A DNA stretch of 64,000 nt, from the NCBI RefSeq assembly GCF_030409755.1, contig NZ_JAUFQE010000002.1:1426001-1490000 (forward strand), in the 5' to 3' direction. Below the pieces are notes generated by a model. The model did no database searches. It worked only from the letters and a program-made list of their open reading frames with translations, and was not told the origin of the DNA. This DNA comes from Vibrio lentus. GTDB lineage: Bacteria; Pseudomonadota; Gammaproteobacteria; Enterobacterales; Vibrionaceae. Position numbers and translations under genes: made by a program. Shown here in pieces: positions 2,600 through 48,114 of the stretch (positions within the stretch are counted from its first letter, which is position 1; every line of letters starts with the position of its first letter).

Positions 2600-3856
2600 A
2601 TGTCTGCTAACTTTCGATCTACAGCCTCGCAATCTACAGGCGCGCAATCAACTGATCACCGTCGAGTGAAAAATACATTGCTTAGGCAGTGGGCGATTGT
2701 TCGCAAAGACAAATGGTTGCTGTCTTGCCTAACTTGGATTCCTTTGTTGCTTGCCGCCAGTATTTGGCTGATTTTTTCACAAGGGATCGCTCGAGACTTA
2801 CCGGTTGCGGTTGTCGACCTTGAACACAGCCAAATCTCGCAACAGTTCACGCGCCTTGTTGATGCGTCACCTACCCTACAAGTGACTCAGAAATACAGCT
2901 CGGCGAGTGAAGCGGCGAAAGCGATGATTGAACGTGATATCTATGGTTATGTCGTGATACCAAGACATTTTGACCGAGACCTTTTTCTAGGCTTGAACCC
3001 GCAAGTGTCCGTTTTCTACAACAGTCAATTTATCTTGATCGGCAAACTGGTGAACTCGGCTCTGTTGCAAGCTCAAGGAACATTCAACGCGCAACTTGAA
3101 GTGGTTAAACAGCTCTCGCACGGTGATACCACGGTACAATCTGCATTGGGGCAAGCGGTGACAGTACAAAGCCAGATTACGCCACTGTTTAACAAGAACA
3201 CCAGCTATGCTCAGTTCTTGGTGTCTGCGGTTATTCCGGCTCTATGGCAAATCATGATTGTGGTGGGCACGATATTGGTTTTAACGGCGAACGTTAGAGC
3301 TCGTGGCCTTCACGCTTGGTTATCCAACGCCCCGCTAAAGTCACTAACGTCAACATTAACGCCCTACCTTGTCTTGTTTTTGATGTTTGGTATCGCGTTT
3401 AGCTTTTGGTTCTATGTCCTCTTAGACTGGCCGTTTAACGGCAGTTTTGTGGCATTAACCATTGCCCAACTGCTTACCGTCATCAGTTGTATCATCATGG
3501 GGTGTTTGTTTTTCTTCTTAACGCTTGATCCAGCAAGGGCGATGAGTTTCGCTGGCGCCTTTACAGCACCAAGCTTTGCGTTCATGGGCATTACTTTTCC
3601 AGTCACCGACATGAACACGGCGGCGCAAATTTGGAGAAGCTTATTGCCCGTGAGTCACTACATTGAAGTACAAACAGCACAATCCAGTTATGGCGCGAGT
3701 GCGGCACAATCGCTAATCAGTCTCTCCTCTATGTTGTGGTATGCAGTTCCTGCTTTCGTGGTGATGTTGTTAATTAAGAAACACTTGGCGATATCAGCAA
3801 TAGCAACATCGTCAACACAGCCAGAAGCATCAGCAGAACAAGGAGTAAAACAATGA
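2600..3856 (+). CDS. ABC-2 type transporter permease
   Basis: This 418-residue protein has one membrane helix near residues 37-57, a large periplasmic domain (about 60-200), then five hydrophobic helices in the C-terminal half, the layout of YhgE/YhhJ-like ABC-2 permeases that work with HlyD adaptors. No ATPase gene is present in this operon, which is common for this group. Its stop overlaps the start of the next permease by 4 bp (ATGA), indicating translational coupling. The two permeases probably form a heterodimer. Confidence 0.85.
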   Translation: MSANFRSTASQSTGAQSTDHRRVKNTLLRQWAIVRKDKWLLSCLTWIPLLLAASIWLIFSQGIARDLPVAVVDLEHSQISQQFTRLVDASPTLQVTQKYSSASEAAKAMIERDIYGYVVIPRHFDRDLFLGLNPQVSVFYNSQFILIGKLVNSALLQAQGTFNAQLEVVKQLSHGDTTVQSALGQAVTVQSQITPLFNKNTSYAQFLVSAVIPALWQIMIVVGTILVLTANVRARGLHAWLSNAPLKSLTSTLTPYLVLFLMFGIAFSFWFYVLLDWPFNGSFVALTIAQLLTVISCIIMGCLFFFLTLDPARAMSFAGAFTAPSFAFMGITFPVTDMNTAAQIWRSLLPVSHYIEVQTAQSSYGASAAQSLISLSSMLWYAVPAFVVMLLIKKHLAISAIATSSTQPEASAEQGVKQ

Positions 3857-4661
3857 GCTTTACTCAACTGCTAAAACAAGAACTGTTAGCGGTACTGCGC
3901 AACCCTGTTGTACTTCTTACGGTATTTGGCGGTGTGGTCTTCTATTCATTCTTGTATCCGCTGCCTTACGCAAATCAAGTTCCTCAACAGCTTAAAGCTT
4001 CCGTTGTGAACTTGGATAAGAGCCAAAGCAGCTACCAGTTAGAAAGAATGGTAGATGCCACGTCTCAAATTGACTTGGTACGCCGTGACTCCACCATCGC
4101 CGATGCTAAGCAAGCTGTTCTTAATCAAGAGATTGGCGGGTTCATCGTCATCCCAGAGAACTTCTATAAAGACCTGCTCCTAGGTAAGAGCCCGACGCTT
4201 TCTTACGCTGGTGATGCATCTTACTTCTTGGTCTACGGAACCATTGTTGAAGGGCTTGCCAAGGCAGGCGGCACGTTAGCTGCGCAGGTAAAGGTCAGCC
4301 ACTTGTTAGTCGAAGGTGTGCCGTTAGAATCGGCTGCCAAAGGCTACAGCGCGTTTAGCTTGAACCTGAAACCAACCTTCAATAGCCGCATGGGATACAT
4401 CGATTACGTAGTTCCAGCCGTCTTTGTACTGATCCTACAACAAACCTTGGCTATGGCTTCTGGCTTAATTGGGGCAACACAAAACGCTCAATCGACGTTT
4501 GGCTATTGGAGTAAGACCTCTCCAGCAAAACTGATGCTTGCTCGCTGTTGTACCTTAGTTGGCATTTATTACCTGTTGTCGATGTATTACTTCGGCGCAA
4601 GCTTTTCGATGTATGGCATTAACCTGCTTGCCTCCATAACAAACGACTATGGCGTCAATAG

Positions 4662-5618
4662 TTAATTTTTGGCGCTGTTTTCATCCCATAGAACACCATC
4701 TCTGAGCATTGAATTTAAGATCACAACCATCTTGCGCACGCATGCAATAATAGCGACTTTCTTTGGTTTACCAGCGCCTAAAAGTCGCTGATATGTCGCT
4801 TTAAAAACAGGATTACATTGCATGGCTGACATCATTGCCATATATAACACAGTGCGTACTTGCGCTCGACCTCCTTGGATCACGCGCTTACCTTTGTAGC
4901 GCCCACTTTCGCGTGTTATTGGAGCGACACCAATCAGTGATGCCGCTTGTTTATTCGTGATGTAACCAAGTTCAGGTACGTTGCTAATTATTGATGCGGC
5001 GGCAATGTTTCCTATTCCTGGGACGCTTTGCAATATTGTGTTTTTAGCCTGGTATTCAGGACTATCTTCAATGAGTTTAACGAGCTTTTCTTCTAACTTG
5101 GTGATTTGATTTTTTATCGTGGTTAGCATTGGTTTGATAGTCGGATGGAGAGAGGCGGGAAGTATCTGGATTCGGTTCTTTTCCATTGTTTGCATGGATA
5201 ACAACTGGTTTCGGCGAATGACTAAGTCACTCATTAGGCGTATGTTTCTTGGCTTTATGACAGTAAGAGCTGGTTTGATTGCTTCTCCATAGTGAGCGAT
5301 CAACTCTGCATCTAAACGATCATTTTTGGCTCTGCGGCCAATAGCACCAGCGAATCGTTTTATGTGGACAGGGTTTGCTCTGACAATTGGTAATTGAGCC
5401 TCTGCACATGCAAGAACAAAAGGCATTTCTAATCGGCCTGTAGCTTCAATAACGATTCGTTCAGGACTGTGACTTTTAATCGTTTTGAGTGCTTTTTTGA
5501 TGCCTTTATCATTGTTCTCTACTGAGAAAAATAGATCTAGTGGCCTGATGTGGATGTCTAATTGTGTTTTGCCAGTATCAACTCCAACGTTGATGCTTTG
5601 ATTGATTTTGGTATTCAT
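4662..5618 (-). CDS. IS110-family transposase (DEDD recombinase)
   Basis: The 318-residue protein has an N-terminal RuvC-like DEDD domain (GVDTGKTQLDIHI near residue 12, IEATG near 58, NDRLDAELIA near 100) and a C-terminal Transposase_20 domain (QSVPGIGNIAAASII near 193, the serine-containing GRYKGKRVIQGGRAQVR segment near 240). These enzymes excise and integrate the IS as a circle under guidance of an IS-encoded bridge RNA. The gene appears intact and fills most of the element. Confidence 0.93.
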   Translation of the reverse strand: MNTKINQSINVGVDTGKTQLDIHIRPLDLFFSVENNDKGIKKALKTIKSHSPERIVIEATGRLEMPFVLACAEAQLPIVRANPVHIKRFAGAIGRRAKNDRLDAELIAHYGEAIKPALTVIKPRNIRLMSDLVIRRNQLLSMQTMEKNRIQILPASLHPTIKPMLTTIKNQITKLEEKLVKLIEDSPEYQAKNTILQSVPGIGNIAAASIISNVPELGYITNKQAASLIGVAPITRESGRYKGKRVIQGGRAQVRTVLYMAMMSAMQCNPVFKATYQRLLGAGKPKKVAIIACVRKMVVILNSMLRDGVLWDENSAKN

Positions 5619-5639
5619 AATAAGCTAACTCATGCTTGC

Positions 5640-5799
5640 GTAATGCGGGTTCGAGACCCAGTCGACTATTCGAGGTTTATGCTTGAAGTCCTATGTAGCG
5701 TTCATGTTTGTTATCGGTCTCTCGATAGAGGAGCCAGCATTTAAACGAACTGCTACATAGAAAGCTTTAGTTGCAGCTAAAGCCTGGGTCTCACATTAC
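5640..5799 (-). ncRNA. Putative IS110 bridge RNA
   Basis: The noncoding region 5' of the transposase is dense in paired segments: 5640-5645 with 5794-5799, 5653-5661 with 5784-5792, 5691-5699 with 5752-5760 (nine pairs), 5712-5716 with 5723-5727, and 5764-5770 with 5777-5783. Stacked stems around internal loops are what IS110 bridge RNAs look like. One loop (5704-5714 read on the minus strand) is ATAACAAACAT, identical to the reconstructed target in the interrupted permease gene. RNA ends and loop roles (target versus donor) are inferred; no promoter was identified. Confidence 0.65.
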
Positions 5800-6214
5800 C
5801 CGATTGGAGTGCTTATTATCCATACAAACATTTTGACTTTACTGCTGCCCTTCTTATTGGCCAGTTGTTTGATTGGGATTTTTGTCGGTGAGCTGGTTCC
5901 AAGAAGAGAGTTAGTCACGGTTGTGGTGTTAATCAGTTCAATGCCACTCATTTTTTCTTCTGGGTTTATCTGGCCCGTTGAAATGATGCCTGAATGGTTA
6001 GTACTGCTATCACAGCTATTTCCGAGTACACCGGCGATTCAAGGTTTCTTAGCACTTAATCAGATGGGTGCTTCTTGGCAAGAAGTGGCGTCTCAATGGA
6101 CTCTGTTATGGGGGCAAGTCGCTCTATGGGGATCGCTGTTAGCGCTCAAGCTCTTTCATAAATCAAGTAAGAGCATCAGTCGAGTCAGTCCCCACTAGCT
6201 TAGCTAAGAATGTT

Positions 6215-47807: not shown

Positions 47808-48102
47808 GGAAATATTGTCGTCTCTCCAATCACACGCGAAAGTGGACGCTATAAAGGTAAGCGCGTGATCCAAGGCGGTCGAGCGCAAGTACGAACCGTT
47901 TTATACATGGCGATGATGTCAGCTATGCAATGTAACCCCATATTCATAGCGACTTATGCTCGACTTTTAGCAGTTGAAAAACCTAAAAAAGTCGTAATAA
48001 TCGCGTGTGGACGAAGGTGGTTGTAATCCTTAACTATATGCTCAGATATGGTGCCATGTGGGATGAAAATACAGCCAAAAACCAGTCATTGACGCCATAG
48101 TC
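47808..48102 (+). mobile_element. Decayed 3' end of an IS110-family element beside an integron cassette
   Basis: About 295 bases match the last quarter of the IS110 transposase at 4.7-5 kb and its 3' end (RESGRYKGKRVIQGGRAQVR readable, then a frameshift near ACGRRW). The terminal CATAACAAACGACTATGGCG (reverse complement of 48084-48103) is shared with the intact copy at 4635. The 5' part and bridge-RNA region are missing. It adjoins the stop of the cassette gene at 48115, where that cassette's attC should begin. Confidence 0.85.
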
Positions 48103-48114
48103 GTTTGTTATGTT

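Follow-up and report, generated by a model that had tools for sequence, protein, structure and literature searches.

Insertion sequences of the IS1111-attC group (ISKpn4, ISPst6, ISPa25) are reportedly treated in Tetu and Holmes 2008 and in Post and Hall 2009. Guide-RNA-directed insertion at attC sites has been published for IS1111 members, with the guide termed seekRNA, in the available portion of PMC11187229. That bridge RNAs exist and vary in step with their targets and donors has also been published (Durrant 2024, PMC11208160; Hiraizumi 2024, PMC11208158; available portions of both). ISEc21, a member of the IS110 group, resembles the element described here in its upstream noncoding region, in the position of the bottom-strand match 5' of the top-strand match and in the natural redirection seen in a relative, but it uses another target, and attC is not named for it in the portion of PMC11187229 available. 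Furthermore, a survey of Shewanella integrons reports IS110 elements in arrays and, in its accessible part, no IS interrupting attC sites (PMC9229058). The titles and abstracts that our searches of openly available papers listed yielded no attC-targeting IS110-group element, which is no proof of novelty.

The window analysed here is a stretch of 64,000 nt of Vibrio lentus DNA. Sequence comparison makes it highly likely that it carries an IS110-group element with an IS621-type bridge RNA in its left end, that the guides of its clade mostly spell attC-like ends, and that the copy found in a permease gene lies off-attC. In the available portions of PMC11208160 and PMC11208158, IS621 shares with this element a DEDD-plus-serine transposase, a left-end noncoding RNA (predicted here), target and donor loops with split guides (the right donor guide here being a candidate), an xT core, a joined-end promoter (putative here), the right donor TGTAT and short ATA/TAT repeats around the donor core; it differs in its target and in the length of the right target guide, ~8 nt here versus 4 in IS621. 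The probable bridge RNA itself is canonical for IS110, and we did not find an attC specialisation described for this group. The element and its protein-coding and terminal features are:

4642..5826, minus strand: IS110-group element, 1185 bp including one copy of the TT core, delimited by three identical copies and their flanks, with the core placed by analogy with IS621
4662..5618, minus strand: transposase, 318 aa, intact (PF01548 and PF02371; alignment to IS621 and ISCro4)
4653..4658, minus strand: TTGACG in the right end, −35-like by sequence; in a circle with joined ends it would stand 17 bp from GATAAT
5815..5820, minus strand: GATAAT in the left end, −10-like by sequence
4642..4643, minus strand: putative core TT, right end (sequence; analogy with IS621)
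5827..5828, minus strand: putative core TT, left end (sequence)

A sequence-only reading of this locus had delimited the element as 4639-5823; its length of 1185 bp stands, and its position is better given as 4642-5826 with the core TT, by analogy with IS621. The transposase is intact, as had been proposed: it has both domains of the IS110 group (PF01548, PF02371), i.e. a DEDD RuvC-like domain and a C-terminal domain with a catalytic serine, and its D14, E58, D100, D103 and S238 align with the residues that we take to be the full DEDD and serine set of IS621 (alignment E 2.2e-30). As is typical of the IS110 group, the noncoding left end is long (~205 nt upstream of the transposase) and the right end short (20 nt downstream). 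The same group has a junction promoter, for which the candidate here, by sequence only, is TTGACG-17-GATAAT; 94 of 98 copies keep the spacing of 17. Among named relatives of the transposase, the best comes from V. tapetis (99% identical), relatives at E ≤ 1e-60 occur in 61 of 227 same-genus genomes, and the only solved relatives found by transposase sequence are IS621 and ISCro4. The element's own genome holds three copies identical over 1185 bp as well as two partial remnants. A related element (~80% identical) survives in the window, at 47814-48108, as a decayed 3' end; its right end, too, adjoins TTGTTATG, the same right target.

The copy in the window interrupts a permease gene:

3853..4638, plus strand: ABC-2 permease gene, upstream part (PF12698, profile positions 4-236)
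5824..6198, plus strand: ABC-2 permease gene, downstream part of the same gene (PF12698, profile positions 243-346)
5829..5835, minus strand: left target CAAAATG in the permease (sequence; the left guide fits at 6 of 9)
4634..4641, minus strand: right target TGTTATGG in the permease (sequence, flank comparison)

Removal of the element had been taken to restore the target ATAACAAACAT, with comparison to an uninterrupted allele suggested as a check and an uninterrupted allele without this 11-mer named as contrary evidence. Among the best 30 of 200 matching genomes, we read the permease site in 29 same-genus loci other than that of the window. The nearest allele among these (L164), with flanks 99% and 94% identical, has no IS and carries exactly ATAACAAACAT; the matching frame in its genome is listed as 393 aa. 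Since the nearest uninterrupted allele has the exact 11-mer, the reconstruction is right. One further allele (L181) has 10 of the 11 bases, and ATAACAAACAT is absent from the other 27 of the 29 alleles read, all of them more diverged.

The two target guides lie in the noncoding left end:

5736..5745, minus strand: left target guide UUUAAAUGCU (co-varies with the left target over 103 copies)
5707..5714, minus strand: right target guide AUAACAAA, complement of TTTGTTAT, inside the 11-mer at 5704-5714 (flank and relative comparisons)

The sequence-only reading had located the same 11-mer, ATAACAAACAT, on the minus strand at 5714-5704 and had taken it as the target guide. Its location in an internal loop is confirmed, and its guide role holds for about eight bases, AUAACAAA at 5714-5707, and not for the last three, CAU, which fit the permease target but do not fully fit those of the other two identical copies. 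Of 5000 random 21-mers from the window, 5 had an exact match of at least 11 to one or the other strand of the 205-nt region, so that the 11-mer match alone is suggestive and not decisive. With the core placed by analogy, the element-sense target of the permease copy is TCAAAATG-TT-TGTTATGG, and those of the other two identical copies are CTTAAATAG-TT-TGTTATGT and CTTAAATGC-TT-TGTTAGGC. All three share TT-TGTTA, and AUAACAAA is the complement of this stretch plus one base. The left guide UUUAAAUGCU equals the left target at 6, 7 and 9 of 9 positions in the three copies; at random window sites at least 6 positions match in 3.1% of cases and at least 7 in 0.46%. At the permease site the right guide fits at 8 of 8 positions and the left guide at 6 of 9. 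Because the shared TT-TGTTA fits AUAACAAA and UUUAAAUGCU fits the left targets, the 11-mer is too long for the guide on its side of the loop, while the guide on the opposite side had been missed: the loop does match its target, not as a single contiguous 11-mer but with a guide split over both sides of the loop. The left target guide (5745-5736) and the left donor guide AUAGUCG (5669-5663) are both additions to the earlier picture. Identical loops at unrelated targets, which would have spoken against a guide, are not what this genome holds, where the identical copies sit at related targets; among relatives such a case is partly presented by L147 and L148, which share a left guide matching L147 at 6 of 9 positions and L148 at only 2 of 9.

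For comparison, 80 of 170 relatives were kept; of 50 plasmid records, 6 were retrieved and 5 used. A left end could not be recognised in 11 of the 144 loci that included upstream sequence, and the other 133 reduced to 111 distinct copies. Guide parsing failed in 4 of the 111; 103 of the remaining 107 entered the left-guide test, and the right end was readable in 98 of the 107. When two registers are allowed, equally for real and for shuffled pairs, the left guide matches its own left target at 6.73 of 9 positions as compared to 5.27 for shuffled pairs (103 copies; no value as high in 10000 shuffles). If each of the 44 distinct guides is given a single count, the values are 6.48 and 4.46, again with no equal in 10000 shuffles. 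An earlier scoring that used one register and a T-run shift, since replaced, had given 5.40 of 9 versus 4.45 (0 of 10000 shuffles as high). The effect persists in the 28 copies (21 distinct guides) that are unlike the common guides, with a left match of 6.64 versus 3.95 (0 of 10000 shuffles), and for 17 of these 28 at most five other targets fit equally well. Well-matched examples are L041 (guide AUAUCCUUAU, target CTATCCTTA), L074 (9 of 9), L084, L078 and L105, and the match is 4 of 9 or less in five of the 103 copies (L018, L042, L145, L148 and L090). Two registers of left guide against left target are seen here, a difference from IS621: among 58 well-matched copies, 37 have one extra base and 21 do not.

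On the right side, TTGTTA is common to guide and target in 94 of 98 copies; guide and target have changed together in two of the remaining four (L037 and L047) and do not fit in the other two (L057 and L054). The target loop accordingly has two sides that match the left and the right target, as in IS110 bridge RNAs. Unusual left guides matching unusual left targets (CTATCCTTA; TTAATTTTT) occur in L041 and L037, from Shewanella, and in L061, L062 and L065, from Alteromonas gracilis, and such unusual pairs suggest that these lineages were naturally redirected from the common attC-like end to other targets. L135 and L041 have one extra T before GTTA at the right junction, consistent with slippage in the core T run. 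The locus is of practical interest in that sequence alone reveals the guide, the site it chose and the same site naturally empty, with many relatives serving as natural variants of both guides, i.e. as a ready series for testing the mismatch and register tolerance of bridge RNAs.

The donor side has its own sequences and guides:

5663..5669, minus strand: left donor guide AUAGUCG, with the same bases as the left donor (7 of 7 in 96 of 98 copies)
5635..5644, minus strand: proposed right donor guide AUUACGCAAG, discontiguous complement of TGTAT plus the core (analogy with IS621; the right side of the donor is nearly constant)
4644..4650, minus strand: left donor ATAGTCG, right end of the element (sequence, copy comparison)
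5822..5826, minus strand: right donor TGTAT, left end of the element (sequence)

Left donors fall into five classes, and the same seven bases are present in the RNA in 96 of 98 copies, where they form the left guide of the proposed donor loop, as expected of an IS110 bridge RNA. On a transposase tree of 94 rows, class changes number at least 11 for the donor and 9 for the guide. C at donor position 4 arose four times independently and the guide followed in all four cases; the sign test (p 0.125) is not significant because there are too few independent pairs. At donor position 7 an average of 2.7 of 4 supported pairs have the guide changing in the same direction, and none in the opposite one. 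Opposite the first core base, the right guide has a base that agrees with the donor core base in 95 of 98 copies, and the next right-guide base, at the 'handshake' position described for IS621 in the available portion of PMC11208158, fits the donor in 71 of 97. In L032 and L132, donor guide and left donor belong to different classes, and these elements are perhaps recombinant.

Could the transposase protein alone, or the folded shape of an attC site, pick the target, with the loop matches reflecting shared ancestry or chance? Since most targets of the clade are alike, some agreement is expected without any guide, and shuffled pairs indeed already match at 5.27 of 9 positions; the 11-base match, for its part, has a chance probability of about 1 in 1000. 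Against protein-only choice, a guide and its own target exceed every shuffle, also within the 28 unusual guides, donor and guide bases co-change in five classes, and the right guide and the target changed together in L037 and L047. Choice by attC shape is further opposed by the permease, L041 and L037 targets, which are without attC features in the second-arm and consensus tests. We consider target choice without a guide RNA very unlikely.

The folded region and its stems are:

5619..5814, minus strand: proposed bridge RNA region, predicted transcript (fold; compensatory changes on 42 RNAs)
5764..5783, minus strand: 5' hairpin GCUUUAG-loop-CUAAAGC (changes on both sides in 4 of 7 pairs)
5691..5760, minus strand: target-binding stem and internal loop (outer stem with both-sided changes in 7 of 12 pairs)
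5622..5684, minus strand: proposed donor-binding stem-loop (closing stem 100% paired and nearly invariant; apical pair 140-146 with 8 compensated sequences)

The nested stems that had been noticed in the 5' noncoding region are borne out: the region folds strongly (−68 kcal/mol, z −5.4, none of 200 shuffles as low), and the 11-mer sits in an internal loop. Covariance folding of related IS110 copies, suggested as a check, was performed on an alignment of 42 of 89 distinct RNAs. Changes on both sides are seen in 12 of 36 RNA pairs, and none of 500 shuffles has as many. In the named structure, 97.9% of cells are paired (42 distinct RNAs) as compared to 31-45% in slid controls; the named structure was drawn from these very sequences, which biases the comparison in its favour. 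Covariation strongly supports the 5' hairpin and the target stem, but only weakly the donor stem, the pairs of which are nearly invariant.

In the minimum-energy fold, GAGACCCAG pairs with CUGGGUCUC (5792-5784 with 5661-5653), and this pairing is retained in the consensus fold. It competes with the local donor hairpin, and there are some double changes in each alternative. The local hairpin is preferred: compensated sequences number 8 and unpaired ones 2 at its pair 140-146, versus 6 and 6 at the long-range pair 6-140; both may form. A search of Rfam over 4500-6000 gave no match at E up to 1. The position of the region just upstream of the start codon, together with the double changes that partly keep the GAGACCCAG/CUGGGUCUC alternative, could be accommodated by a mere leader or transcription-control element of the transposase gene, but such a leader has no reason to track target and donor sequences, which the guides do follow, and we regard this explanation as extremely improbable. 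Very probably, then, what lies in the noncoding left end is a bridge RNA of the IS621 type; an IS110 bridge RNA with a loop that matches its site, as the sequence-only reading had put it, is the interpretation that the co-variation of targets, donors and stems supports.

Comparison of copies thus supports guide-target and guide-donor co-variation and stems kept by compensatory changes, and the remaining steps we infer from IS621. By homology, the element would leave as a circle, the joined ends of which would create the promoter from which the bridge RNA is transcribed. In the target loop, the left guide would pair with the bottom strand and the right guide with the top strand of the target; a second RNA loop would read the circle junction, and the transposase would recombine target and circle junction at a TT or CT core.

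With respect to targets, 74 of 102 copies have a gene (frame of at least 70 codons running toward the junction) with its stop no more than 60 nt from the right junction, as compared to a background of 5.6%, and in 29 of those 74 the stop is the TAA inside the target TAACA. Near the left junction, a gene stop is found in 2 of 97 copies. L002 and L003 have such a neighbouring gene on the right; the permease copy has none. Left flanks resemble a Vibrio attC-like consensus, itself taken from the same flanks, above the 99.9% level of random window stretches in 50 of 107 copies. A gapped search for the upstream inverted arm found one at ≤ 5 of 100 shuffles in 37 of 95 copies, with ~5 expected by chance, mostly 80-120 nt away; it found no significant second attC arm in the other 58 of the 95, including L001, L002 and L003, and an ungapped search found the arm in 3 of 95. 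The attC box is present in its strict form GTTRRRY in 21 of 95 targets and as GTTANNY in 77 of 95.

In attC nomenclature the end concerned is R''. We read these sequences as pointing to a clade that inserts at the R'' end of attC-like sites, tail to tail with the cassette gene. The guides would mostly spell the end of integron attC-like sites beside the stop codon of the cassette gene, and because they spell the end next to this codon, most copies would lie tail to tail with a gene whose stop is intact. The window's copy would have landed off-attC, in the permease, away from the usual target of this clade. We lean slightly towards a fuller version, in which a hitherto undescribed IS110 clade, spread over Vibrionaceae and further marine gammaproteobacteria, came to direct its bridge RNA to the attC R'' (stop-codon) end separately from, and convergently with, IS1111-attC elements; it would park beside intact stops in cassette arrays, tolerate a one-base slip between target guides, include lineages re-guided to non-attC targets and spill into chromosomal genes, the permease among them.

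Might the element instead simply belong to the known IS1111-attC group (ISKpn4, ISPst6, ISPa25)? Guided by RNA, that group inserts at one end of integron attC sites (available portion of PMC11187229), and insertion at such an end is also seen in many relatives here, though not in the permease copy. In that group, however, the noncoding region follows the transposase and the two guides stand in the opposite order (same portion of PMC11187229), whereas here the noncoding region lies upstream, only 20 nt follow the transposase stop in place of a downstream RNA region, the bottom-strand guide is 5' of the top-strand guide, which is the IS110 order in that source, and the only solved relatives that sequence comparison found are IS621 and ISCro4. 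The chance of such membership is exceedingly slim. If the attC reading of the present clade is true, integron recombination sites are exploited by RNA-guided elements of two branches and not just one, and this would bear on the interruption and reshaping of cassette arrays.

The element's own genome shows no sign of a large attC array (at ≤ 3 mismatches the attC-like end has 29 matches, versus 14 in the reversed control), and a search for integron integrase gave 13 matches, none over the cut-off and two of them adjoining fragments; all 14 control genomes matched too. These two adjoining fragments, at C1:1154531-1154904, resemble the two ends of an integron integrase and lie ~4 kb from a 50-nt right-end remnant of the element at C1:1150195-1150244, as if the genome had a decayed integron. 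Finally, the left flank of L003 (element sense, 28-1117) holds a different transposase, by eye of the IS110/IS1111 type, ~380 nt from the L003 copy and at an attC-like site.
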